A DNA stretch of 64,000 nt from Sedimentisphaera salicampi (GTDB lineage: Bacteria; Planctomycetota; Phycisphaerae; Sedimentisphaerales; Sedimentisphaeraceae). The translations under genes and the position numbers were made by a program. Below the pieces are notes generated by a model. The model saw only the letters and a list, made by a program, of their open reading frames with translations. It was not told the DNA's origin and ran no database searches. Where the stretch lies: NCBI RefSeq assembly GCF_002117005.1, contig NZ_CP021023.1, positions 1,612,001 to 1,676,000 of the forward strand, in the 5' to 3' direction. Below are positions 18,108 to 48,115 of this stretch, one piece after another. Position 1 is the stretch's first letter. Each line of letters starts with the position of its first letter.

Positions 18108-19055
18108 TCAAGCCTTGCGTTTTCTCGTGTAAAGCAAGCTGCCAATACCAAACAAAACGGCGGTAGTCGGCTCAGGGACACCTATAAGATCAGGATTGCT
18201 AAGCGTTTCATTTGAAAGCCTTACCTCATCAATCAAACCGGCAAAACGCTCAACTTCAGCTTCCCTGCGTCCAATCATAATATTATTGGTCCCTCCGCTG
18301 ATGAGTATATCATTAGTGAGAGTCTGGTCTTTAAAATAGGCGTTGCCGTCTTCACTGTAAACAAGCAGGCTCATTTCATTAGCCACCTGATCATACCTTG
18401 CAGCGGCATAATGCCACATACCATCCTGAAAACCGGCTGCCCTGTCGTCTTTTGTCAAAACGAGGTTCACAAAACCATTGCCGTCATATCCCCAAAACTC
18501 AAGTCCTCCATCGCCTGAGGCTCCAGTGTTGAGCTGTAGATGGCTTGCGGCGTGCCCTTCTTTTGCCCAGAGCAGAGTCTGAGTTCCTGATGTATCCCCT
18601 ATCTGCTTGAAAAACAGTTCGGCGGTAAAACTCCCAGAATCATATTCATTTCCATACTGATCAGCAGCATAAAACATATTTCCTCCAACTTCCCTGACAG
18701 CATTAAAATTGAAGGAGTGGGATGATGAAATCCCGTTGCGCAGGTTAGAAGGCGCAGCATCAGAGCTGAAAGCATTTTCTCCGCCCCCTGAGTCAGGATT
18801 CTCCATATCACCCCATACATACAAGGGGTCGTGTGCAGGATTTGGATCACCCGAGTTTCCTGCAATGGTTCCCTGACCTGCCCCATCAGCACTGTCAAGT
18901 ATGCCGTGGGTATCCGTACTCCCGTTTATATAAAGCCCATCTGCCCACGCATCCATTTTCCAGTGGTGGACATAGGCAGCCGGAGCAGCGGAACTAATAA
19001 CGCACACAATCATCAATAACATCAGCAAGTGATTCTCTCTTTTTAGAATTCTCAT
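18108..19055 (-). CDS. LamG domain protein with PEP-CTERM sorting signal
   Basis: 315 residues from the ATG at 19055 (GGAG 9 bases upstream). Signal peptide, one LamG domain (about 75-285, SGSFTAELFFKQ and FAGLIDEVRLS), then a C-terminal PEP-CTERM signal: VPEPTT, a hydrophobic helix, and RKRK. Such signals are cut by an exosortase during export to the surface; no exosortase is in the window. It is the only member of this cluster with PEP-CTERM instead of the EF-hand tail. Confidence 0.85.
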   Translation of the reverse strand: MRILKRENHLLMLLMIVCVISSAAPAAYVHHWKMDAWADGLYINGSTDTHGILDSADGAGQGTIAGNSGDPNPAHDPLYVWGDMENPDSGGGENAFSSDAAPSNLRNGISSSHSFNFNAVREVGGNMFYAADQYGNEYDSGSFTAELFFKQIGDTSGTQTLLWAKEGHAASHLQLNTGASGDGGLEFWGYDGNGFVNLVLTKDDRAAGFQDGMWHYAAARYDQVANEMSLLVYSEDGNAYFKDQTLTNDILISGGTNNIMIGRREAEVERFAGLIDEVRLSNETLSNPDLIGVPEPTTAVLFGIGSLLYTRKRKA

Positions 19056-19118
19056 TTTCTTGCACTCCAAATTAAACGACAATTATTTTCTGAGCCCATT
19101 GCTCATTTTTTCCAAATC

Positions 19119-28899: not shown

Positions 28900-29713
28900 T
28901 CAGCTTGAGCGTTTTCTTCTAAGAGAGAACAATCCGCCGATTCCAAGCAAGGCCATTGTTGCTGGTTCGGGAATTGTTACAGTAACAGGGTCAAAAGCAT
29001 CTAATGCTCCTCTCAAAGAACCTCCGTCAACAAGAAGATTTCTACCAGTATCTCCACCCTCTGTTACTTCATATGCAAAGCTCACTGAATTTGTGTTCTG
29101 CAGTGTGTAGAGTACGGCAACATCTGCTTGATCCTCTGTGAGGGGAGGCACAATCCCTAACTCTCCAGGTATATTTCCTTCAGCGTCTGAGCCATCGAAT
29201 ATGGGCTGAGCGGGGTCGCTGTCATCTATAGCCAAAAAGGTATCTTGCGTAACTGTGTAAGTACCCGCCGTTTTCAAGGTTAATATATCAGCAGTTCCAC
29301 TACTCGTTCCGTCAATGTCATAAAATCCGAGCATCCATTCGTAATCACCACTGGGAGAGAATGCTGTTTCGTAAGTATCATCCGACCATAGATTCAACGT
29401 AAGCTCTACAGATGAACCGTTTTCTACCTGAACCCTGATGTCGTCGCTTACAGAGCCATTATTGGATGGATTGTTGCTTGACCACGGAGCGTCTGCTTCA
29501 AGTGTTGCGTATATATCGATTGTTGATCCATTAGTGTAACTGCCAACCTGCCCAAATTCCATTCTAAGGTCGTCTGAGTCTGGGAAAGTATCCTGTACTG
29601 TGTCGCCAAAGTTTAAGTTTATCTCAATGAACTCTGCATGAGCAACATTGCAAAGCAGTGCAACAACTGCCAGTAGGATAACCACTCCTGTTTTTTTTGA
29701 TAATTTTTTTCAT
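28900..29713 (-). pseudogene. PEP-CTERM protein with a frameshift in the signal peptide
   Basis: The body frame (29685 to 28900, 261 codons) encodes the hydrophobic half of a signal peptide (VVALLCNVAHA), a secreted beta-rich domain, and a C-terminal PEP-CTERM signal (IPEPATMALLGIGG... RRKR). The good start, ATG at 29713 with AAAGGATG upstream, is in another frame. Between them lie A7 and A8 runs (minus strand); removing one A joins MKK-type start and hydrophobic core into a normal signal peptide. The in-frame GTG at 29685 lacks a basic n-region. So either a sequence error, a phase-variable gene, or expression by slippage. Function of the domain not recognised. Confidence 0.6.
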
Positions 29714-30034: not shown

Positions 30035-31651
30035 CTATCTTCTTCTGATTTTAATATTGTCAAATTCTGCTTCGCTGTCTATAACCCGAACGCCGGCCAA
30101 GCCGCTGGAATAGTCATCGTCTTTCACCTCAATCTGCTTTTCATTATTGATGAAAAACTCAATATTTTCGCCTTTCGCCATTACTTTCAGGTGATAGTCT
30201 TTCCCCTGCTTTAGGGGGATTTCTTTGCGGGCAAGCTCTTTCCAGTTTTCCCCGTCCATCTTGCCGAGGACTGCTATATTATTCTGCGGGATTATTCCGG
30301 CAAAATAGCCTTTCATCGCATCATAGCCCACTGCAGGATGATTAACCCTGAATATGAGCCCGGCATCTCTTCCGCCTTTAACCACCTTCACCTTTGCATA
30401 ATAGACAAAATCATCCCAGAGCATATCCCTGATTACCGCCTTTTCGCCGCTGCGGTAGTTGTTGGCTATGCCCCAACCCGGATTGATTCCGAGAACTAAT
30501 TTTTCGCTGCGCACATCGATAAAGCGATTGTAGCCGTAGTAAACCCAGTTATCCCAGCGTCCTGAGCTGAATGAATCGGTGAAATGGCTTGCCGATTCGG
30601 GCAGCTTCTCGCCTGAGGGCTTTTGCAGCACAGTGCCTTCGGGAGTGGGCTTGCCGAAGTCCGGAGAACCGTCTGGATTCCAGCCGAATTTCTCAATCCG
30701 CACATTTCGCTGCCATCCGTGCCGCTTGGAAATCTTGGAGTGATACATCATCCAGTCCTCTGTTCCATCCGGCGATTTGGTAAAGCAGCAGTGGCCCGTG
30801 CCGTAAACTTCGTCTGTTCCCTGAAAAACCGGCTCGTCTTTCTTTTTCCAGTTTTCAGGGTTCATCGGGTCCTGTCCCTTTTCTATAGAAAGCTGGGCGA
30901 GCTTGTAGGTTGGCTCCCAAGAGCCGCTGCACGAGTATATAACGTAAATCTTATCTTCATTTCTGAGGATTTGAGCGGCTTCATTCAGCCCTCGCTGATT
31001 TGCCTTCTCAGACACCTTCTCCCATACATATGTATCGTTCTCGGCCATCTTCACGCGGTTTGTCGCGGCTGTCCATGGGTTTTTCATCTCGGCAATATAA
31101 AGCGACTGAATATCATCATCATAGCCTTCCCAGCCAGACCATATCAGATATAGCTTTCCGTTCATTTGAAGCGGGGTTGCATCAATCGCCCAGCGATTAT
31201 TCTTCTTCGTTTCAATTTCATCGCCTGTGTAAACGATCCCCATATCTTCATATTCGCCCTGCTGGTCTTGAGTTTTGCTGCGCAGAACGCCGGTTCTGTG
31301 GTCGATGTTTTTCCCGCTGTCTGCGGCGTAGTAGATATACCATTTGCCCTGAAGATAATGCAGCTCCGGCGCCCAGACCTGGCTTGTGTTCCATCCGGTG
31401 TCCGGGGCCTTCCAGACCACTCTTTTAACACCTTTGTCTGTAAGCTTGGGGGATTTCCAAACAGCGATTCCCTTATCACCCTCAGACTGACAGAAATAAT
31501 AAAATCCGTCGGTATGCTTATATACGAACGGGTCTGCCCCTTCATAAATCGGGTTTACAAATGTTTGTTTGTAATCAGCTGCGAACAAATGCAATGCGCC
31601 GCACAAGGCAAATGCCGAAACGGCCAACTTGAAAAAGGATTTTTGCTTCAT
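30035..31651 (-). CDS. Glycoside hydrolase family 43 with C-terminal sandwich domain
   Basis: 538 residues, secreted (signal peptide to about residue 25). Five-blade GH43 propeller from about 30 to 340 with the three acidic residues in place: Asp40 (GADPFV, base), Asp157 (AIDATPL, pKa modulator) and Glu224 (LNEAAQIL, acid). The C-terminal domain (about 360-538) is a concanavalin-like sandwich. GH43 enzymes remove xylose or arabinose, or cut beta-xylosides. In this locus a beta-xylosidase that takes xylose off a sulfated algal glycan is plausible. It has its own terminator, and a sulfatase terminator lies just upstream. Confidence 0.88.
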   Translation of the reverse strand: MKQKSFFKLAVSAFALCGALHLFAADYKQTFVNPIYEGADPFVYKHTDGFYYFCQSEGDKGIAVWKSPKLTDKGVKRVVWKAPDTGWNTSQVWAPELHYLQGKWYIYYAADSGKNIDHRTGVLRSKTQDQQGEYEDMGIVYTGDEIETKKNNRWAIDATPLQMNGKLYLIWSGWEGYDDDIQSLYIAEMKNPWTAATNRVKMAENDTYVWEKVSEKANQRGLNEAAQILRNEDKIYVIYSCSGSWEPTYKLAQLSIEKGQDPMNPENWKKKDEPVFQGTDEVYGTGHCCFTKSPDGTEDWMMYHSKISKRHGWQRNVRIEKFGWNPDGSPDFGKPTPEGTVLQKPSGEKLPESASHFTDSFSSGRWDNWVYYGYNRFIDVRSEKLVLGINPGWGIANNYRSGEKAVIRDMLWDDFVYYAKVKVVKGGRDAGLIFRVNHPAVGYDAMKGYFAGIIPQNNIAVLGKMDGENWKELARKEIPLKQGKDYHLKVMAKGENIEFFINNEKQIEVKDDDYSSGLAGVRVIDSEAEFDNIKIRRR

Positions 31652-31744: not shown

Positions 31745-33286
31745 TTATATAGTCTTGAATTTACCCCTTGCAGAGGCCTTGATAATCCTGTTTTGAGTCC
31801 AATGTTCTCTGTACCATGTGGAGGCGGGGAAATCGTCGTTGAGCTCTATCATCTTGGCCATCATCATTCTTCTGAACCTTTCAACCTCTTTCTTGTGCCC
31901 CGGGTCATTGACAAGGTTGTTCTGCTGATAAGGGTCTTTCTTATTGTCGTAGAAAACTTCTTTTCTTGGAAGATTGTCTCTTCCGCCGCCCCTGAATACG
32001 CCGTAAGTGTATTTCGGGCTTCTCATTGCCCGCCATTCGTGGCCGTTTGCCCATACTGCACATGCCCCTGTGTTCATAAGAAACGCAGCTTCCGGCTCTG
32101 CCGGACATTTCTCACCAAGAGCAGCATTCGCAAGGCTCACTCCCTCTACCTCATCAGGGATCTCAGTTTTGAGGCCAGCAAGGTCGAGGATGGTGGGCAT
32201 AATATCAACAGTGTTCATACATACATCTGTGGCAACAGGCTTTGTTTTGCCTTTCCAGTAAACCAAAAACGGAACGCGTGCGGCTTCTTCGTAGAATATA
32301 TTCTTCTTCATACGGCCGTGTCCGCCGAACATCTCGCCGTGATCGCTTGTGAAAACTACAATCGTATTTTCAAGCAGCCCTTGATCCTTCAGCGAGCTCA
32401 TAATCCTGCCTATGTTCCAGTCGAGGTTGGCTGTCATAGCATAATAGCAGCGCATCCAGTTTTGGAGCTTTTCGGGGTTCTGATCTACGTTAGACCAGCC
32501 GTCGCCGTATGGGTCTTTCTTCTGAGAATAGTTCTTGGGCGGATCAAACTCGACATCCTTATACATATCCATATATTCCTCAGGGACATTGTTTGGCTGC
32601 CACGGGTCGTGAGGAGTGCCGTAGGATACGGTAAGATAGAAGGGCTTATTGCTCTTGGAGTTCTTCTTGATATAGTCTATGGCCATATCCGTCTGGGCAT
32701 CGGGCTCGAATTTATTATCTTCGTAATGAATCTTTTCCTTAGATTCAGTATGGTAATATGCGGCGCCGCCGTAGTAGTCGTGGTGGAAGTTGTAGGCAGC
32801 CCAGTAGCCGTCGAAGCCGAGCCTGTGTTTGCCGCGGGGAATAAATGAATTGTCAGGATTGTAATGGTCTCCAAGTTCGTTGGCATACAAGTGCCACTTG
32901 CCGATATAGCCTGTGTTGTAGCCGGCGTCTGTGGCCACGTGGCCGATACACCTGTGGTTGGGGTTCATCCGGAGCTCATTTATCACCATACCGGTCGAGG
33001 AGGTGTATTTCCCCGTGAAAAGCGAAGCCCTGTAAGCCGAGCATACCGGCATACTTGAAACCGCCTGACGATAATTCGCCCCGTCTCTGGCCATCTTGTC
33101 GATATTTGGAGTATGCGCCTTCTCGTCGCCTGCATATCCGCAGGAAGCGTATCTGAGCTGATCAGCGAACAGAAAAACAATATTCGGTTTGTTCTCCGGC
33201 ATAGCATAGCCGAAATTCGCCGCTGCTGTTGCTGCAACAGCAGCAGAGGTTCGCTGAAGAAATTTTCGCCTTGATATCTTATTCAT
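31745..33286 (-). CDS. Formylglycine-dependent sulfatase (C-X-A-X-R type)
   Basis: 513 residues. Twin-arginine-type leader SRRKFLQRTSAA, then a family S1 sulfatase fold: metal Asp in FLFADQLR (about 42), the modification motif CSAYRASLFTGKY with Cys82 and Arg86, and FTSDHGEMFGGHGRMKK near residue 315 with the metal Asp/His pair. The C-X-A-X-R core differs from the C-X-P-X-R of the three downstream paralogues, so it probably belongs to another S1 subfamily with another sulfate position as target. Cys82 must be oxidised to formylglycine by an anSME not found here. Confidence 0.9.
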   Translation of the reverse strand: MNKISRRKFLQRTSAAVAATAAANFGYAMPENKPNIVFLFADQLRYASCGYAGDEKAHTPNIDKMARDGANYRQAVSSMPVCSAYRASLFTGKYTSSTGMVINELRMNPNHRCIGHVATDAGYNTGYIGKWHLYANELGDHYNPDNSFIPRGKHRLGFDGYWAAYNFHHDYYGGAAYYHTESKEKIHYEDNKFEPDAQTDMAIDYIKKNSKSNKPFYLTVSYGTPHDPWQPNNVPEEYMDMYKDVEFDPPKNYSQKKDPYGDGWSNVDQNPEKLQNWMRCYYAMTANLDWNIGRIMSSLKDQGLLENTIVVFTSDHGEMFGGHGRMKKNIFYEEAARVPFLVYWKGKTKPVATDVCMNTVDIMPTILDLAGLKTEIPDEVEGVSLANAALGEKCPAEPEAAFLMNTGACAVWANGHEWRAMRSPKYTYGVFRGGGRDNLPRKEVFYDNKKDPYQQNNLVNDPGHKKEVERFRRMMMAKMIELNDDFPASTWYREHWTQNRIIKASARGKFKTI

Positions 33287-33408: not shown

Positions 33409-36400
33409 TTATTTATGAATCTCAACTTTCAAAGGATTTTTTATTCTTTCTTTAAGCTCGTTAATTTCTTCCTGCCACTGCTCTTCTGTTTCAATTCCCT
33501 GCTTTTCCCAGCCGAAGCCTGTATAGTAAACTATGGGTTTATCGGTGGGCTCAGTGATGATAAATGCATGGCTCTGATCGGGTTTATCAACCCTGATTTC
33601 CATAGTCTTTTCAGGCTGAGGCTCTGCAAGCACAGCTCCGGCGCCAAGATATGTGCCGTCAATCATCTCAGAGCAAAGGATGCTGGCTATTCCAAGCTCA
33701 GCGGAAGCCTTGCCGTTGTGCGTGGTAATCCCTACAGCAAACTGCTGAGAGCTTGCGTCTTCGCCGGAAAAAGAGCTTTCAATCTTCGTAAACCATGAAT
33801 TTAGATCAATGGTAAACCTTTTAATTTCCTTCAGGCTTTTTCCGTTTCTCTTCCACGAATCATCGTAGGTGAGCTCGAAGATTGAGCGAATCGGCCCGTT
33901 TGCAATGCGTTTGTATTCATCGTAAACGCTGGAATGAACTCGTCTGCCGTTTTCCCAGAGCGATAGGCCGCCGCAGCCGGCTGATGAGCCCACGTGATAC
34001 GGGTCGTAGCCCTCGCCGAAGTAGGAGTGATAGGTTCTGCCGTGCTGGGCGGTAAAATAGCGATTGTTTGTAGTGGGGTATTCAACCTCTTTGAGCCAGC
34101 AGTCGAAGCCGCTGTTTGCTCCTTCTTTTGCGAGCTTCGGGCCGTACGCCCTGAAACCGATCAGGTCATTTTCCCACATATAATCATCTTTTCTCTCAGG
34201 CACGTATCTGCTGTAAGTTCTTAGGTTTGGAAGAGTTATTTTAGCGTCTTTGATGATGAAGTATTTTTTGCTTTCGCCGGCATCAAGGCTGGCCTGAAAG
34301 AGAAACTCATCCATTTCCCCGTCGAGATCATTATCCACAAGCTGAGTCTGAGAGATTTTATAGTTTTCCGCCGAGATAACTCCCGCTTTGCTCAGATCTA
34401 TCCCTCTAATTTCGTCCGGATCAATGGAAACAGCCCCATAGCTCACATCAACATTCGCATAATTGGAAACCCGAAGCTCCTGGGCTTCAGAAATCTTCTC
34501 TTCAACGGCAATCTTATACACCTCGGAGCCTGCAAGAAGGAACGCGCCTACGCCGTAAACTTCTGTCTGCTCTTCGGTGATATTTCTTGGGTCTGCCCCG
34601 ATTGGCTGGGTGTATCCGAGCATACCATCTGAATGAACGTTGCTGCTGAGGCTGTTCCATCCTTTCATAATATGGGGCAGGTATTCTTCTCTCTCCAGCA
34701 GGCCGTGGTTTACGCCCCATGCGAGGGCGTATAAATAGAAGCCTGAGCCGCTGGATTCGGGCGTGCTGTATGTTTCAGGGTCAAGAAGGCTCGAATGCCA
34801 GAGACCGTCGGGCTGCTGGATTGAGGCAATCTTCCTGGCCATCTTCTTGTATAGATTTTCGAAGTAGCCGATTTGCGGGTGGTCTTTGCCGAGGTATTCC
34901 ATTGTGCGCACGAGGCCTCCCATTACCCAGCCATTCCCGCGAGACCAGAAGACCTTCTCGCCGTTTTTCTCTCTCTTGTCGAAGTAGCGGGAGTCTCGGT
35001 AGTAAAGATTTTCCTTCTTATCAAAGAGCTTTTCGGTGGTATATTTCCACTCCTCAATCATAAAGTTTTCGTATTTCTTTTCGCCTGTAATAGCTGCCAT
35101 CTTCGCCCAAACAGGCGGGGCCATAAACAGCGCATCGCACCAGCTCCATCTCTCCTGAGTTTTTCCGCTGAACGGAACGATCTCAACATCTGAGCGATTC
35201 TTGAGGATCCAGTCGAGCCTTTGGCGGGTTTTCTCAATCATCTTTTTCTCGCGGTATTTCTCATAAAGCTTAAGATACATCTGGCATACGGTAAAATCAT
35301 CGGCGTGATACTTTCTCCGGTGGGGAGCCCAGTTGTTTCTCTCGCCCATCTCTATCAGATAATCAAAATATTTATCGTCTGCGGCCATTTCCGCCCATTC
35401 TGTCATACCTGCGTAAAGAGCGCCGTGTGTCCAGTCGGCGGTGTGATGGCGGGAGGGATTTTTAATCTGCCAATCTGCAACGCGCCTCATATAGTTTCGA
35501 ACAGACCTTGCAGAAGGCTTTTCAGCCGAGAGGTTTCTTTCATCTCTTAAAACATCAATCTTTATTGCTGCATTGAATTTTGTGTAATGTTGGTAGTAAT
35601 GTATCTGCTCCCACATAAGGGCGGGCCCGTCTTCGGGGTGATTGCGGATAACGTACGGACGGACATTCCCGTAGGCCGAGTTTTCGGTAACCGATTCGGT
35701 ATTCCATGTTTTACCCAAATTTTCTGTCTCATAGCGATATATCTCGAGATTTCCGTTAATCCGCCTTTTTGAGAGGTAAACCACATTCGGATTAGAATGG
35801 TCGAGGGCAATTCCGGGGGAGTAATGCGGCTCCCGCTCTTTCTTGCCCTTCGGTGTCTGCGGGAACCATTTGCCTGCATCGCAGATCTTATTGTCAACCC
35901 ATTTGCTGCCGTCCCAGCGGGCATAATGGTATCTGTGGTCTGTTTCTTCGGGCATACGGGCGTAAACAATTACCGGATTGCCACTGCTGTCCAGAGCTAC
36001 ATCCCAGTTCCAGCCTCTGCCCTTTTGCTTATCTGCCTTGTAAACAACGCTTGCCTTTGATTTTTCAATAGGCAGATTTTCTATAGAGCCTATTTTCTTA
36101 TCCTCGGCGTTGTAGAAGTTTCCAGCCTTGTAATACATATAGTAAATGCTGTTCTCCGGCCACTGCCTTGGGTGGCCGTCGGTGAAGACGAAGTGGATTT
36201 CGTCCTTTCCATTTGAAGCTATTTTAGTGTAAGGCCGGACATTTCTGCCGTGTTCAGGGTGAGGGCCGCTTTTGAAAAGCTGCTCCGGCTTGCTCCAAGT
36301 TTTAACGTTATAAACATCATCATTGTAAGAAACTGTAGGCTCGTAGTTTATGCCTCTCCAGAACATATACACCCTGTTATCCTCTTCTGAGAGCATATAG

Positions 36401-36837
36401 GGATTCGGGTATGTTATTCCCCTGTTTTCCGGATGGTTGAAATTCTTGATTTCCTGCTCGACATCCCAAACGCTTATATCTTCCGGCCTGTGAGTTACCC
36501 GCATATACATCGGGCCTCCGCCGTGCTTTGTGTAGAACATGGCAATCTTTCCGGAAGGGGTAATAAGCACTGAGGGGTTGTTGTGGTCGTCCTTTTGGAA
36601 TTTCGGGTGCAGGTTGTAAGTGTCTGTAATGCCGGATTCGATGTTATATTTGCCGGCAAATATTGAGCCGTCTCCAGACACCCAGCCGGTATAGACATTG
36701 CCGTTATAGCATACTCCTCGAGGATCGCCGAACCAGCACCAGCCGCCGCTGCCGCTTACGCTCACATAATCCTGAGAGCTCGCTGCAATAGAGAACCCTG
36801 AAATAAAAACAAACAAAAAGATAGTTAGCTGTCTCAT
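33409..36837 (-). CDS. BNR_4 propeller / GH105 / DUF4861 fusion, polysaccharide-degrading
   Basis: About 1142 residues from the ATG at 36837 (GGTGG upstream; a GTG at 36846 would add three). Signal peptide; BNR_4-like seven-blade propeller (about 22-430, GSGGWCWFGDPR, DDHNNPSV, TKHGGG), a fold shared with PL24/PL25 ulvan lyases; GH105/GH88 barrel (about 440-790) with WSWCDALFMAPPVW, catalytic Asp near 568, and SRGNGWVMGGL; then a C-terminal DUF4861-like sandwich (about 800-1130). GH105 removes the unsaturated uronate that a lyase leaves, so the polypeptide may both cut the chain and trim the product. The lyase activity of the first domain is an inference; it might only bind glycan. Own promoter at 37005-37032. 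Confidence 0.82.
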   Translation of the reverse strand: MRQLTIFLFVFISGFSIAASSQDYVSVSGSGGWCWFGDPRGVCYNGNVYTGWVSGDGSIFAGKYNIESGITDTYNLHPKFQKDDHNNPSVLITPSGKIAMFYTKHGGGPMYMRVTHRPEDISVWDVEQEIKNFNHPENRGITYPNPYMLSEEDNRVYMFWRGINYEPTVSYNDDVYNVKTWSKPEQLFKSGPHPEHGRNVRPYTKIASNGKDEIHFVFTDGHPRQWPENSIYYMYYKAGNFYNAEDKKIGSIENLPIEKSKASVVYKADKQKGRGWNWDVALDSSGNPVIVYARMPEETDHRYHYARWDGSKWVDNKICDAGKWFPQTPKGKKEREPHYSPGIALDHSNPNVVYLSKRRINGNLEIYRYETENLGKTWNTESVTENSAYGNVRPYVIRNHPEDGPALMWEQIHYYQHYTKFNAAIKIDVLRDERNLSAEKPSARSVRNYMRRVADWQIKNPSRHHTADWTHGALYAGMTEWAEMAADDKYFDYLIEMGERNNWAPHRRKYHADDFTVCQMYLKLYEKYREKKMIEKTRQRLDWILKNRSDVEIVPFSGKTQERWSWCDALFMAPPVWAKMAAITGEKKYENFMIEEWKYTTEKLFDKKENLYYRDSRYFDKREKNGEKVFWSRGNGWVMGGLVRTMEYLGKDHPQIGYFENLYKKMARKIASIQQPDGLWHSSLLDPETYSTPESSGSGFYLYALAWGVNHGLLEREEYLPHIMKGWNSLSSNVHSDGMLGYTQPIGADPRNITEEQTEVYGVGAFLLAGSEVYKIAVEEKISEAQELRVSNYANVDVSYGAVSIDPDEIRGIDLSKAGVISAENYKISQTQLVDNDLDGEMDEFLFQASLDAGESKKYFIIKDAKITLPNLRTYSRYVPERKDDYMWENDLIGFRAYGPKLAKEGANSGFDCWLKEVEYPTTNNRYFTAQHGRTYHSYFGEGYDPYHVGSSAGCGGLSLWENGRRVHSSVYDEYKRIANGPIRSIFELTYDDSWKRNGKSLKEIKRFTIDLNSWFTKIESSFSGEDASSQQFAVGITTHNGKASAELGIASILCSEMIDGTYLGAGAVLAEPQPEKTMEIRVDKPDQSHAFIITEPTDKPIVYYTGFGWEKQGIETEEQWQEEINELKERIKNPLKVEIHK

Positions 36838-37103: not shown

Positions 37104-38567
37104 TCAGCCTTTATGCCTCGGGTTTTGCATAGGCATCTTTGCATCCACCTCTTTTCGCCAGTCAACGAGCATTTTATGCAGCTCTTTTGCTTTGCTGGGC
37201 ATTTTATCAGCGAGGTCGTTTTTCTCGCCGATATCTTCTTTGAGGTTGAAAAGCTCAAGCTTTCCGCTCTCGAACCATTCGATGAGTTTGTAGTCGCCGC
37301 AGCGAACCGCTGAGGAAGGCGAACCGCCCTGATTTCCATAATGGGGATAGTGCCAGAAGATTGCTTTGCGCTCAAGCTTTTTCTCGCCCTTGAGAAGAGG
37401 TACAAAGCTAACGCCGTCAACGTGCTGCCGGGGCTGCAGGGGCAGGCCGGCTATCTCAAGAAGCGTGGGGTAGAAGTCCGTGCTGGTAACTGGGAAATCG
37501 CAAACAGACCCGGGCTCTGTAACTCCCGGCCATACTACAAACATCGGCTCTCTGATCCCGCCTTCATACATCCAGCCCTTTCCGCATTTGAGCGGGAGAT
37601 TGCAGGTTGGGCGTCCTTCGGAGGTGGAGAGCCCCCCGTTATCGCTCATAAAAACGAACACAGTGTCTTCGTAGAGCCCTTCTTCCTTTAGAGCCTCCAC
37701 AACTTTGCCCACAGAATTATCCATCGCCTCAATCATGCCGGCATACACTTCATGTTCCTGAACTCCTCTGACTCTTCTTCCGCTCTGGGTAATCCATTCG
37801 TTGGAAATTCCCATATTCTTTTTCTTCTCTTTGTATTTCTTCTTGAGCACCTGCTTTGTCTGAAGGGGCGTATGGACAGAGTACATTGAGAAATAGAGAA
37901 GGAAGGGATTGCCTTTCTGGTCTTTGCGCACCAGCTTTGCTGCTTCTTTCCGCAGCCTTTCGGGCAGATATTCCCCCTTGGGAGCTGGAAGGTCGTTCAC
38001 TTTAGTGTAAGGGGCGAAATAGCTTCCCGGATTGCCGGCATGGCCTCCGCCAACGTTCACATCAAACCCTTGGTCTTCCGGCCAGAAGCCCTCAGGGCCG
38101 AGATGCCATTTACCGAGGAAGTATGTGTTGTAGCCGTTTTCATCAAACGCCTCTGCCATAGTCTTTTCTTCAAGCGGGAGACGCTCTTTGTACTCTGCGG
38201 GCAGGAGAGGCTTGTTTCTTGTCCAGTGCCTCTGAACATTGTAAGGCTGCGGGGCTCCGAACCAGTCTGTGGTATTGAGCCTTGCCGGATACTTGCCGGA
38301 CATAATGCTCGCCCTTGTGGGAGAACATACAGGGCAGGCGGCATAGGCATCTGTGAATTTCATTCCTCTTTTGCAGAGGGCATCTATGTGAGGTGTCTCG
38401 TAAAACTCGCTTCCGAAACAGCTTAAGTCTGTCCAGCCGAGATCGTCTATCAGGAAGAAAACAATATTAGGCTTTTTGGCAGGCTTTGCGAATAAGTTTC
38501 CGCTGCCAAGGCCGGCAAGTGAAACCGCCGCAACGCCGGCAGATTTGAGAAAAACTCGTCTTTGCAT
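37104..38567 (-). CDS. Sulfatase, third of a tandem array
   Basis: 487 residues. RRVFLKSAG Tat-like leader, metal pair in LIDDLGWTD (41-42), active-site CSPTRASIMSGKY with Cys81 to become formylglycine, and VFMSDNGGLSTSEG further on. Same family as the two genes upstream but more divergent, with 29 bases to its neighbour. Removes sulfate esters from a polysaccharide or oligosaccharide; the array suggests several sulfate positions. Periplasmic or secreted. Confidence 0.92.
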   Translation of the reverse strand: MQRRVFLKSAGVAAVSLAGLGSGNLFAKPAKKPNIVFFLIDDLGWTDLSCFGSEFYETPHIDALCKRGMKFTDAYAACPVCSPTRASIMSGKYPARLNTTDWFGAPQPYNVQRHWTRNKPLLPAEYKERLPLEEKTMAEAFDENGYNTYFLGKWHLGPEGFWPEDQGFDVNVGGGHAGNPGSYFAPYTKVNDLPAPKGEYLPERLRKEAAKLVRKDQKGNPFLLYFSMYSVHTPLQTKQVLKKKYKEKKKNMGISNEWITQSGRRVRGVQEHEVYAGMIEAMDNSVGKVVEALKEEGLYEDTVFVFMSDNGGLSTSEGRPTCNLPLKCGKGWMYEGGIREPMFVVWPGVTEPGSVCDFPVTSTDFYPTLLEIAGLPLQPRQHVDGVSFVPLLKGEKKLERKAIFWHYPHYGNQGGSPSSAVRCGDYKLIEWFESGKLELFNLKEDIGEKNDLADKMPSKAKELHKMLVDWRKEVDAKMPMQNPRHKG

Positions 38568-38596
38568 TGTAATGCTCCTTTATTTGAATATCATTA

Positions 38597-40066
38597 TTAC
38601 TGCTTATAACCCGGATTCAGCTGCGGCATTTCAGCATCAACTTCTTTGAACCAATTTAACAGCTTATTAAACAATCTGTCAGTGATTTCAGGCTTTTTAT
38701 CTGCAAGGTTGTTCTTTTCTCCAATATCCTCTCTGAGATTGAATAATTCCTTCCGGCCGTCTTCATACCACAAGATCAGTTTCCACTCATTTTCGCGAAT
38801 TGCAGAAGCGGGCGAACCTCCCTGAGGGCTGTAATGCGGGTAGTGCCAGAAAATCGGGCCGCGGTCCATATTTTCTCCCTTAAGCAGAGGCACCAAACTT
38901 TTGCCGTCCTTATGCTGTTCAGGACGGGCAGGCAAACCCGCCATTTCGAGAATTGTTGGATAGAAATCATTGCTTATCACCGGTTCCTTGCAAACCTTTC
39001 CGGGCTCTGCTTCGCCCGGCCATTTGATTATCATCGGTTCACGAATCCCGCCTTCGTAAATCCAGCCTTTCCCTGCGCGCAGGGGCAGGTTGGAGGTCGG
39101 TCCTGGGTCGGCAGTAGAACACCCGCCGTTGTCCGACATTAAAAAGACGATCGTATTTTCATCCAGCCCCAACTTCTTTAAATTCTCAAGAACCTTGCCG
39201 CAAGCCAAGTCCATAGATTCAACCATACCGGCATACACTGCATGCTCCTGGGTGAGACGGGCTTTGTATTCACCCTCTTTGCCCCACTTGGTTTCAATGC
39301 CCATCTTAGCCCTCTTTTTTCTGTACTTTTCGGTTAAGTCTTCACGGGTAACGAGGGGGACATGTACAGAATAGAAAGACAGATATGCCATAAACGACTT
39401 GTCTTTGTTTTCTTTCATAAACTTGACTGTTTCATCTGCCAGCCGGTCAGGCAAATGCTCGCCTTCCGGGCCATCCTCAAGACGCGGATTGCCGTATGGG
39501 ACAAAATATTTTCCTGGCCCGTATGGTCCGCCTAAACGCCAACCGCCTTTGTTTATGTCAAACCCCTGATGTTCCGGCCAGTAATCTGCCGTTTCGCCCA
39601 AATGCCATTTTCCAGCAAAGAACGTAGAGTAGCCATTTTGTTTTAAAGCCTCAGCCACTGTCAGCTCATCTAAAGGCATATTGTGCTTAGATGCTGCAGT
39701 TAAGATCGGCTTATTCACCGCCCAGTGCCTGTTAATTTTGTAAGGCTGAGGTGAGCCGAACCAGTCTGTGGTGTCCATCCTTGCAGGATACTTTCCTGTC
39801 ATTATGCTTGCCCTTGTGGGGGAACATACCGGAGCGGCCGCATAGGCATCTGTAAATTTTATCCCTTCTCCACACAGAGCATCTATGTTAGGCGTTTCGT
39901 AAAATTCGCTTCCAAAACAGCCTAAATCTTTCCAGCCGAGATCATCTATAAGCAGGAATAGGAAATTAGGCTTTTTTGCAGGCTTTGCTAATAAGCTTCC
40001 GCTGCCAAGGCCGGCAAGTGAAACCGCTGCAAGGCCGGCAGACTTGAAAAAAGTACGTCTTTGCAT
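38597..40066 (-). CDS. Sulfatase, second of a tandem array
   Basis: 489 residues. RRTFFKSAG leader, LIDDLGWKD metal site, CSPTRASIMTGKY with Cys81, FLMSDNGG near residue 310. The 3' part (about 38597-39070) is nearly identical at DNA level to that of the next gene (40090-40565), while the middle differs clearly, including the loop after IKFTDAYAAAPV and the region around residues 95-320. This is the pattern of recent duplication or gene conversion with diversification of the substrate-contact regions. Confidence 0.92.
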   Translation of the reverse strand: MQRRTFFKSAGLAAVSLAGLGSGSLLAKPAKKPNFLFLLIDDLGWKDLGCFGSEFYETPNIDALCGEGIKFTDAYAAAPVCSPTRASIMTGKYPARMDTTDWFGSPQPYKINRHWAVNKPILTAASKHNMPLDELTVAEALKQNGYSTFFAGKWHLGETADYWPEHQGFDINKGGWRLGGPYGPGKYFVPYGNPRLEDGPEGEHLPDRLADETVKFMKENKDKSFMAYLSFYSVHVPLVTREDLTEKYRKKRAKMGIETKWGKEGEYKARLTQEHAVYAGMVESMDLACGKVLENLKKLGLDENTIVFLMSDNGGCSTADPGPTSNLPLRAGKGWIYEGGIREPMIIKWPGEAEPGKVCKEPVISNDFYPTILEMAGLPARPEQHKDGKSLVPLLKGENMDRGPIFWHYPHYSPQGGSPASAIRENEWKLILWYEDGRKELFNLREDIGEKNNLADKKPEITDRLFNKLLNWFKEVDAEMPQLNPGYKQ

Positions 40067-40089
40067 TATGTTTATCCTTTATTTGAGCA

Positions 40090-41562
40090 TTATTGCTTAT
40101 AACCCGGATTCAGCTGCGGCATCTCAGCATCAACTTCTTTGAACCAATTTAACAGCTTATTAAATAATCTTTCAGTGATTTCAGGCTTTTTATCTGCAAG
40201 GTTGTTCTTTTCTCCAATATCCTCTCTGAGATTGAATAATTCCTTCCGGCTGTCTTCATACCACAAGATCAGTTTCCACTCATTTTCGCGAATTGCAGAA
40301 GCAGGTGAGCATCCTTGAGGACTGTAATGCGGGTAGTGCCAGAAAATCGGGCCGCGGTCCATATTTTCTCCCTTAAGCAGAGGCACCAAACTCTTGCCGT
40401 CCTTATGCTGTTCAGGACGGGCAGGCAAACCCGCCATTTCGAGAATTGTTGGATAGAAATCAGTGCTTATTACCGGCTTCTTGCAAACCTTTCCGGGCTC
40501 TGCTTCGCCCGGCCATTTGATTATCATCGGTTCACGAATCCCGCCTTCGTAAATCCAGCCTTTCCCCCCTCGCAGAGGGATATTAGAGGTAGGATGCCAT
40601 TTAGCCGTGGAGAGGCCTCCATTGTCCGACATAAAGAAGACGATAGTGTTATCATCTATATTCATCTCTTTAAGTTTATCAAGCACCTTGCCGCAAGCAG
40701 TATCCATTGCCTCAACCATGCCGGCATAAACAGCGTGGTCTTGGGTCAGCCGAATGTTGCGATTTCTGTCGCTTCCATATTCTGTTTTCAATCCAAGAGC
40801 CTTTCGCTTCTTTTCGTACTTTTCCTTCAGATCCTCTCGGGCCATCAAAGGGGTATGTACAGAATAGAAAGAAAGAAACGCAAGGAAGGGATTCTTCTTG
40901 TTAGATTGGATAAATTCTATGGTTTCATCCGCCAGCCGGTCAGGCAAATGTTCGCCTTCGGGTCCGTCTTCCAGTCTTGGGTTATCGTAAGGCGGGAAAT
41001 ATCCATCACCTTTCGGCGCTCCAACTTCCCATCCACCTTTATTTATATCAAACCCCTGATGTTCCGGCCAGTAACGCTGCTCTGCCCCCAAATGCCATTT
41101 TCCAGCAAAGAACGTAGAGTAGCCAGATTGGTTGAGAGCCTCAGCAACAGTAAGCTCGCTCAAAGGCAGAGACTCCTTAAAGTCAGCAGTTAAAAGAGGT
41201 TTATTAACCGCCCATCTGTATTTTTCAAGCGGCACTTCCCCACCCGGACCGCCAAACCATTCGGTTGTATCAAGGCGAGCGGGATACTTTCCCGACATTA
41301 TGCTCGCCCTTGTGGGGGAACATACCGGAGCAGCTGCATAGGCATCTGTGAATTTAATTCCTTCTCCGCACAGAGCATCTATGTTCGGTGTTTCGTAGAA
41401 ATCGCTTCCAAAACAGCCTAAATCTTTCCACCCGAGATCGTCTATAAGCAGAAAAAGGAAATTAGGCTTTTTTGCGGGCTTTGCTAATAAGTTTCCGCTG
41501 CCAAGGCCGGCAAGTGAAACCGCTGCAAGGCCTGCAGACTTGAAAAAGGTACGTCTTTGCAT
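40090..41562 (-). CDS. Sulfatase, first of a tandem array
   Basis: 490 residues. RRTFFKSAG leader, LIDDLGWKD, CSPTRASIMSGKY with Cys81, FFMSDNGGLSTAK. Heads the operon of three sulfatases, read from the promoter at 41602-41630. The last 160 residues match the downstream gene almost exactly. Likely S1 family; sulfated sugar target not predictable from sequence. Cofactor formation needs an external formylglycine-generating system. Confidence 0.92.
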   Translation of the reverse strand: MQRRTFFKSAGLAAVSLAGLGSGNLLAKPAKKPNFLFLLIDDLGWKDLGCFGSDFYETPNIDALCGEGIKFTDAYAAAPVCSPTRASIMSGKYPARLDTTEWFGGPGGEVPLEKYRWAVNKPLLTADFKESLPLSELTVAEALNQSGYSTFFAGKWHLGAEQRYWPEHQGFDINKGGWEVGAPKGDGYFPPYDNPRLEDGPEGEHLPDRLADETIEFIQSNKKNPFLAFLSFYSVHTPLMAREDLKEKYEKKRKALGLKTEYGSDRNRNIRLTQDHAVYAGMVEAMDTACGKVLDKLKEMNIDDNTIVFFMSDNGGLSTAKWHPTSNIPLRGGKGWIYEGGIREPMIIKWPGEAEPGKVCKKPVISTDFYPTILEMAGLPARPEQHKDGKSLVPLLKGENMDRGPIFWHYPHYSPQGCSPASAIRENEWKLILWYEDSRKELFNLREDIGEKNNLADKKPEITERLFNKLLNWFKEVDAEMPQLNPGYKQ

Positions 41563-46399: not shown

Positions 46400-48115
46400 T
46401 TAATAGCTGATCGCAGAGATTTCTCGCTCCGCAACGACATTTTCCATATATTGCTCTGCCTCAGCTTTTATATCGCTGTAATACTGGCTGGCTGCGTTGG
46501 CTGTATCATCGATATCCGAGCTCTTCCATTTGCCGGTAAGCTTAATCTCTTGCTCAATTGTGTATAGAGACGGGGTTTCCTCAAGTCCGCCTGCACCGTC
46601 GTTATTTGCAATCCTGATGCTCACCTTATTCCATTTGCCCGCTAGAAGAGCTCCCTTGGGGACAGCATAAACCCTTCTAACATCCCAAGCCTGCTGACCT
46701 CGTCCGGTGCTGCCAACCTTCAGGCCGTTTATGTATGTATCATCGACATCATCAATCCTGCCTGCAAAAACCCAAACCTTTTTGTCCTGCCAGTCTACGG
46801 GGATTTTAACGTATGTAGTGATCCAGAGCGCCTCGCCTGCGGGTACATCAATATTGGTTATGCTCTTTAGTGATTCCCTCGGGGGTTTGGCGGGGTTTTC
46901 AGGAGCAGTTAAATTCGGCCATTTTTTCCAGTCCTTCCCTGCCCATGCATATTCTCCCGGGCGCGCACCATCGGCAGAATCTTCCATCTCAAGCTCTCTG
47001 AAATCTTCGAATCTGTGGAAGGTAAGATAATTTGCATTATGCTGGTTGTCTGCGCCGCTGTAGGCATCATCAAAGGCCGTTCTTGAAACTGCAATGATAT
47101 CATCCCCCTCAATTAGCCAGTCTAAATACTGGAATCCGTGTTTCTTATCATCTTTGTGATACAGCAAAACGCACTTCATCTGCCAGTCTCTCAGTTTTTT
47201 TGAACTAAGCAGAGCAGCTGCGTTTCGCACTCTCTCGTTGTTCTTTGATTCGTGCGTATTTGCAGGCATAACAGCATTGGAAATCGTCCAGTAGCTTTCT
47301 GTTTCACTGTCGTAGCGGATTGTAAATTTCTTCCCGCCTCCGGGCATATTGACAAAACCGCTTTCGGGGTCGAATGTAAGTTTTCTGCCGTTCCAGCCGC
47401 ATTCAGCTATTGCTGCCCTGCCGAGCCTGCGGTCGTCGGTATCCACGCGGAGTATATTGAGGATATTGTTATCAGGCCCAGCCACGGCATTTCCTTCCAG
47501 CCAGCCGCCGAAATTCCCGCCGAGCCAGTCTTGGTCTGCCCCGATTCGGTTGCTAACTCTCCAGTTTGAGGCATCGAGGAGATTGGAACCGTTTGGAGCT
47601 GACAGCATAAAGGCTCTGAAATGGTCGCCCCAGCCGCCGATCCCCATAGCATCCTCAAATCCTCGCCAGATCCTGCCGTGAGAATATATTACAGGCACAG
47701 GAGCTGTATGGTATTTCCCCCCGGTAAGCAGGAGACCGGAATTCTCGTCTTCTGGGGTGGTCCAGTTATCCCCCCCGTCATCGGAACGGAGGATAACCAC
47801 ATCGCCGTGCGGCCGGCTTGTACCCATCATATACAGAGAGCCGCTGTGCACGAAAATATTCGCCCAATAACAAGGCGCTTCGGAAATCTTCTGCCATGTT
47901 TTGCCCTGATTCTTTGAGCGGAAAACTAAAGTTTGAGGATCTGCCTTCGGGCCGAAATTATCACATTTTGCAATATAATCGCCATTTTGAAGAACCGCTA
48001 TCCCTGGGGAGCCCACATAAACACCGGAATCGGCCTTCTTGTGATGTACTACTGTTCCGGGAACCGCCCAAACCATCGCTGCGGCGGTTAATACTAATAA
48101 TGCTGCTTTTTTCAT
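46400..48115 (-). CDS. Secreted sialidase-like (BNR-repeat) protein with C-terminal sandwich domain
   Basis: 571 residues. Signal peptide ending near AVPG, then a six-blade propeller (about 25-395) with Asp-box-like turns SKNQGKTWQ and SDDGGDNWT, as in exo-sialidases and related families. From about 415 to 535 there is a galactose-binding-like sandwich (KVWVFAGRIDDVDDTYINGLKVG) of the type found beside glycosidases. The typical sialidase FRIP motif is not visible, so it may act on another glycan. Single gene, far from regulators. Confidence 0.7.
   Translation of the reverse strand: MKKAALLVLTAAAMVWAVPGTVVHHKKADSGVYVGSPGIAVLQNGDYIAKCDNFGPKADPQTLVFRSKNQGKTWQKISEAPCYWANIFVHSGSLYMMGTSRPHGDVVILRSDDGGDNWTTPEDENSGLLLTGGKYHTAPVPVIYSHGRIWRGFEDAMGIGGWGDHFRAFMLSAPNGSNLLDASNWRVSNRIGADQDWLGGNFGGWLEGNAVAGPDNNILNILRVDTDDRRLGRAAIAECGWNGRKLTFDPESGFVNMPGGGKKFTIRYDSETESYWTISNAVMPANTHESKNNERVRNAAALLSSKKLRDWQMKCVLLYHKDDKKHGFQYLDWLIEGDDIIAVSRTAFDDAYSGADNQHNANYLTFHRFEDFRELEMEDSADGARPGEYAWAGKDWKKWPNLTAPENPAKPPRESLKSITNIDVPAGEALWITTYVKIPVDWQDKKVWVFAGRIDDVDDTYINGLKVGSTGRGQQAWDVRRVYAVPKGALLAGKWNKVSIRIANNDGAGGLEETPSLYTIEQEIKLTGKWKSSDIDDTANAASQYYSDIKAEAEQYMENVVAEREISAISY

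Follow-up and report, generated by a model that had tools for sequence, protein, structure and literature searches.

Can a single secreted protein both cut an acidic polysaccharide and trim the chain end that the cut creates? Polysaccharide lyases and hydrolases of glycoside hydrolase family 105 (GH105) are known as separate proteins that work in sequence. The question arises from one gene in a 64,000-nucleotide stretch of the Sedimentisphaera salicampi genome (contig NZ_CP021023.1, positions 1,612,001 to 1,676,000; hereafter the window). An initial annotation, made from the letters alone, had described a single continuous frame at window positions 33409-36837. The frame is there, but our analysis places it on the minus strand: the plus strand of this interval carries many stops, whereas the minus strand is unbroken from an ATG at 36834 to a stop ending at 33409 and encodes 1141 amino acids. 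The protein consists, in order, of a signal-peptide-like leader, a BNR_4 propeller, a GH105 barrel and a DUF4861 domain. We consider it likely that it is a secreted bifunctional enzyme, combining a beta-elimination lyase with an unsaturated-uronyl hydrolase. Its parts are as follows (AF2, AlphaFold2; pLDDT, predicted local distance difference test).

36775..36834, minus strand: probable Sec signal peptide MRQLTIFLFVFISGFSIAAS, residues 1-20, recognized by eye from the sequence; it begins at the ATG start and has no lipobox Cys
35545..36774, minus strand: BNR_4 propeller, putative polysaccharide lyase domain, residues 21-430, from Pfam, an AF2 model and structure matches
34495..35514, minus strand: complete GH105 (alpha/alpha)6 barrel, residues 441-780 (Pfam E 1e-90; phmmer to 4CE7, E 8.5e-75)
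33412..34485, minus strand: DUF4861, residues 784-1141, super-sandwich (mutarotase-like) fold (Pfam E 2.2e-68; AF2 pLDDT 84.7)

All three domains named in the initial annotation were matched by Pfam far above the cut-off, and hydrophobic leaders also stand at the start of homologues. The triple fusion is a real gene and not an assembly artefact, because it recurs in genomes of the same genus, order and class as well as on further contigs. The source genome, assembled as one 3.19-Mb contig with a completeness of 99.89%, holds one BNR_4 domain, one DUF4861 and, beside the fusion, one other strong GH105. Among 392 genomes of the phylum, the same-genus genome G325 encodes a triple fusion of likewise 1141 amino acids at 89% identity; a same-order genome has one at 48% and a same-class genome one at 36%, and one further genome carries propeller and GH105 only. 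The ratios of nonsynonymous to synonymous substitution between the window and G325 copies are 0.064 (propeller), 0.069 (GH105) and 0.108 (DUF4861), and all three domains are therefore under purifying selection.

The propeller is the part whose chemistry is most in question. Pfam BNR_4 matches residues 48-317 (E 1.3e-40). Searched against the PDB sequences, a profile of 15 homologous propellers found the ulvan lyase PLSV_3936 of polysaccharide lyase family 25 (PL25; 5UAM) first, at E 8.3e-7, and the match strengthened to 2.2e-7 with a 59-sequence profile. In this alignment Asp121, His123, His143, Tyr188 and Arg204 of PLSV_3936 fall exactly on Asp82, His84, His104, Tyr142 and Arg160, and a sixth position, the substrate-binding Tyr246, falls on Tyr202. 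The six residues are kept in 99, 103, 102, 103, 103 and 103, respectively, of 103 propellers, a set of fused and unfused members in which a few are the same gene fetched twice. Their codons are located as follows.

36583..36591, minus strand: Asp82-Asp83-His84, the D-x-H of the His-His-Asp triad (PL25 Asp121/His123; by pattern, FoRham1 Asp83/His85)
36523..36525, minus strand: His104, putative second catalytic His (PL25 His143; by pattern, FoRham1 His105)
36409..36411, minus strand: Tyr142 (PL25 catalytic Tyr188; by pattern, FoRham1 Tyr150)
36355..36357, minus strand: Arg160, putative carboxylate neutralizer (PL25 Arg204; by pattern, FoRham1 Arg166)
36229..36231, minus strand: Tyr202 (PL25 substrate-binding Tyr246)

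The His-His-Asp motif is reported to be common to PL24, PL25 and PL42 (PMC10951650), and mutation of the His and Tyr abolishes the activity of a recently studied PL25 enzyme (PMC13193363). The fold points the same way. The AF2 model of the propeller (pLDDT 89.2; predicted template modelling score, pTM, 0.90) superimposes on the seven-bladed PL25 structures 5UAM and 5UAS with a Z score of 35.3 and a root-mean-square deviation of 2.7-2.8 Å over 365-366 residues; PL42 follows at about the same level (Z 30-35), then lectin propellers (PLL/PHL, Z about 25) and PL24 (Z 21-23). The BNR_4 likeness that the initial annotation had noted is borne out by Pfam, a likeness to PL25 by sequence profile and structure, and the His, Arg and Tyr residues that it had looked to for lyase activity are conserved as His84, His104, Arg160 and Tyr142. 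PL24 is the more distant relative: the enzymes LOR_107 and Uly1 share the fold and the reported motif at 11-13% identity, and the comparison with PL24, whose residue set is His146/His167/Tyr243/Arg259, was one of fold. The lectins among the structural neighbours would fit a non-catalytic sugar-binding propeller attached to a GH105 as the only active domain. This seems unlikely to us, given that the PL25 and PL42 lyases score about 10 Z units higher than the lectins, that the catalytic positions are 96-100% conserved in fused and unfused members alike, and that stand-alone propellers are common.

The near-equal match to PL42 raises a further possibility within the lyase-plus-hydrolase explanation, namely that the propeller is exo-acting and takes a terminal rhamnose, or another cap, off glucuronic acid, leaving an unsaturated glucuronic acid for GH105. 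Side-chain ends would then be stripped and the backbone not cut. The PL42 structures 5MUM, 4IRT, 5MVH and 7ESK fit the model as closely as PL25 (Z 32-35), and a stepwise exo mode fits fusion with an exo-hydrolase. FoRham1, a PL42 rhamnosyl-alpha-1,4-glucuronate lyase (former GH145), belongs to the same BNR_4 Pfam family and shows, by pattern, an Asp-His-His/Tyr/Arg set of the same type, together with a shallow pocket (PMC8377490, PMC10951650). Its residues Asp83, His85, His105, Tyr150, Arg166 and Tyr202 fit the pattern of the propeller only in their order and spacing and by way of PL25, the second His lying 20 residues after the D-x-H. FoRham1 is, however, a single-domain enzyme, PL42 identity to the propeller is 13-16%, and the sole PDB lyase found with the sequence profile is PL25, not PL42. 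We regard this exo mode as a credible minority option, somewhat less probable than its negation.

The GH105 domain is straightforward. Pfam Glyco_hydro_88/GH105 covers residues 449-775 (profile positions 2-351 of 352), and the nearest solved protein is the ulvan unsaturated 3S-rhamnoglycuronyl hydrolase Nu_GH105 (4CE7), a separate, unfused enzyme with a solved chain of 370 residues. The whole barrel is shared with it, as are the catalytic Asp and the WCDALFM and RGNGW motifs that had been picked out in the first reading of the sequence. As judged by sequence, the catalytic site is intact. Asp143 of YteR (1NC5) is the vinyl-hydration Asp of GH105 enzymes (PMC4528949), and it aligns with the following residue.

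35134..35136, minus strand: Asp567, putative vinyl-hydration Asp

Asp567 and the pocket residues Trp565, Trp630, Arg632 and Trp636 are invariant in all 32 fused homologues. The linker between propeller and GH105 is short, at 7 residues in 18 of the 32 when measured between profile matches.

How common is this architecture? A whole-protein scan of genome contigs gave no match, its patterns being too specific. A wider search with the propeller alignment, against 84,980 species represented by one genome each, brought up at least 475 relatives, and the 80 best loci, chosen by propeller similarity alone, were read. Of these, 28 have the propeller fused to GH105, and 4 of the 28, on Planctomycetota/Verrucomicrobiota contigs, also carry DUF4861; in four other loci (L053, L091, L098 and L109) a GH105 gene is adjacent and unfused. 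By their assigned taxonomy the fused loci spread over nine phylum-level groups; one of these, labelled archaeal, may reflect a binning error. On a quick propeller tree with SH-aLRT support only, the fused state requires 15 changes, gains and losses pooled, and the triple fusion of genome G077 is separated from that of the window by a fully supported branch. Because propeller–GH105 fusions are this common, the protein is not a one-off: the architecture is widespread and recurrent. A fusion unique to this genome was considered and rejected, since both the triple and the two-domain forms recur elsewhere. So many changes of state, whether gains or losses, suggest that it is advantageous to have the two steps coupled.

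Some loci show variant arrangements. The order is reversed, GH105 before propeller, in one Ignavibacteriales fusion (L099:6879-9185). A contig labelled as a Methanoregulaceae archaeon carries a fusion closest to Armatimonadota (L073:7941-10232), by transfer or binning error. In Planctomycetota PNC21 (L059:8151-11189) the propeller–GH105 unit is joined to DUF6807 in place of DUF4861 and a sulfatase adjoins; in Parapedobacter composti (L085:6498-9215) the propeller is joined to a sulfatase domain.

Gene order places several fusions beside the pathway that would use their product. KduI consumes the product of unsaturated-uronyl hydrolases. The triple fusion of genome G287 lies in the order iclR, fusion, kduI, kduD, an eda-type aldolase and a KDG-kinase-like gene, and those of G077 and L046 in the order iclR, fusion, kduI, kduD. 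In all, kduI or kduD adjoins 9 of the 28 fused loci versus 1 of the 52 unfused ones (Fisher p 2e-4, kinship ignored). The source genome has the G287 gene set, without the fusion gene, as an iclR-kduD-kdgK-eda-kduI operon elsewhere (L041:7841-12149). The triple fusion has an unfused counterpart in Flavobacteriales DT_38 (L053:4817-10421), where separate genes for kduI, kduD, DUF4861, propeller and GH105 lie five in a row.

We propose the following mechanism. The propeller (residues 21-430) would act by beta-elimination, breaking a glycosidic bond to the O-4 position of a uronic acid, with Arg160 and His104 neutralizing the uronate carboxylate and His84, held by Asp82 and together with Tyr142, serving as base and acid. 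The cut would leave a 4,5-unsaturated uronic acid on the new non-reducing end. GH105, about ten residues further on, would hydrate the double bond by means of Asp567 and free the unsaturated sugar as 5-dehydro-4-deoxyuronate, which the cell would then handle with KduI, KduD, KDG kinase and KDPG aldolase. DUF4861 probably handles the freed sugar or the shortened chain end. The idea that cutting and trimming are joined in one protein, put forward in the initial annotation, is backed by the lyase residues, the intact GH105 site, the recurrent fusions and the kduI/kduD operons; the novelty lies in a widespread architecture and not in one odd protein. A known parallel is the ulvan pathway of Formosa agariphila, in which a uronyl end is made unsaturated by the lyases P10_PLnc and P30_PL28 or the dehydratase P29_PDnc and then removed by P33_GH105 (PMC8511951), although by separate proteins there and by one polypeptide here. 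P29_PDnc, which feeds a GH105 in this way (PMC8511951), raises the possibility that the propeller is an oligosaccharide dehydratase, eliminating water rather than sugar and so readying saturated uronate ends for GH105. We think this very improbable: the P29_PDnc residue set differs (Asp, Arg, Lys) and its Tyr306Phe variant is still active, whereas the propeller has a set of the PL24/25/42 kind.

Several observations count against a coupled lyase and hydrolase. Structural alignments give the propeller only 11-18% identity to characterized lyases. Of the PL25 zinc site (His208, His264, Cys266 and His278), Cys266 and two His have no counterpart in the alignment to PLSV_3936: only His264 is matched, Cys266 lies in an unmatched insert, His278 aligns to an Arg, and no His follows the Arg160 motif. 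The propeller is not fused in 52 of the 80 loci. The source genome holds other lyase candidates (PL11-like, heparinase-like and alginate-lyase-like), so GH105 could also serve other lyases; the propeller as sole lyase of its genome was rejected on the same grounds. Because exo-acting PL42 has, by pattern, the same residue set, endo cutting is not implied. With the zinc ligands mostly missing and 16-18% identity to PL25, the propeller is lyase-like yet too diverged to be filed as PL25, from which it also differs by its fusion to GH105 and DUF4861. We nevertheless hold that these fusions probably serve as a cut-and-trim tool.

On which polysaccharide would such an enzyme act? Ulvan is only one possible substrate. 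The genes around the fusion are as follows.

30035..31651, minus strand: GH43 with a C-terminal 3-keto-disaccharide hydrolase-like domain (Pfam E 1.7e-49; synteny kept in G325)
31745..33286, minus strand: sulfatase (Pfam E 5.7e-59; order kept in G325)
37104..41562, minus strand: three tandem sulfatases upstream (37104-38567, 38597-40066 and 40090-41562; Pfam); G325 has two sulfatases at the corresponding position

The sulfatases and GH43 thus keep their order around the fusion in G325. The three tandem paralogues have nearly identical leaders (MQRRTFFKSAGLAAVSLAGLGSG). Sulfatases adjoin 4 of 28 fused loci versus 12 of 52 unfused ones; being no hallmark of the fused state, they are no argument for coupling. 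The four sulfatases and GH43 do fit a lyase acting on a non-ulvan acidic polysaccharide, glycosaminoglycan-like or a microbial exopolysaccharide, with the substrate varying by lineage. So do the diverse phyla among the fused loci and the neighbours of other fusions, namely a PL8 gene (L060), NAGLU, GH20 and sulfatase genes (L117) and heparinase-like genes (L101). Against it stand the closest relatives of the two domains, which act on ulvan in both cases (4CE7 for GH105, a lyase for the propeller), although the identities are no more than low to moderate. We judge the two sides evenly balanced; a non-ulvan substrate is compatible with a coupled lyase and hydrolase.

DUF4861 (PF16153) matches residues 791-1137 over profile positions 3-380 of 380. 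The region scores under the NCBIfam BT_3233 equivalog cut-off (290 versus 320 bits), and a sequence search against the PDB gave no match. Its AF2 model adopts a super-sandwich fold resembling the beta domains of GH38 and PL26 (Z 14-17), and a string of invariant residues (R-PER-D-WE-D; YH-GEG-D) suggests that the domain has a functional site.

Within the literature library searched, there was no description of a BNR_4–GH105 fusion and no paper on DUF4861; an unspecified two-domain BNR_4 protein of Draconibacterium is mentioned (PMC13193363), and BNR4 and GH88 are described as separate genes (PMC10868263). The chemistries are known, their widespread covalent coupling was not found described, and the lyase family is possibly new. 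More speculatively, the propellers may form a new family of polysaccharide lyases, a sister group of PL24/25/42 that has repeatedly been fused to GH105 as self-sufficient cut-and-trim enzymes, and in Planctomycetota/Verrucomicrobiota also to DUF4861 as a third catalytic module (for example, one that carries out a mutarotase-like reaction on the unsaturated uronate once it is released). This we put forward tentatively; if true, one secreted protein would deliver the KduI substrate from polymer. A lyase–GH105 fusion would be a ready-made tool for degrading acidic algal or microbial polysaccharides, and our analysis offers a concrete lead to the function of DUF4861 and of hundreds of BNR_4 propellers that are as yet unassigned.

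Elsewhere in the window, positions 46400-48115 encode a 571-amino-acid, apparently secreted protein with BNR-like SxDxGxxW repeats and no Pfam match at 1e-3. PEP-CTERM-type C-terminal sorting tails occur at 28900-29685 (Pfam match) and 18108-19082 (by eye).
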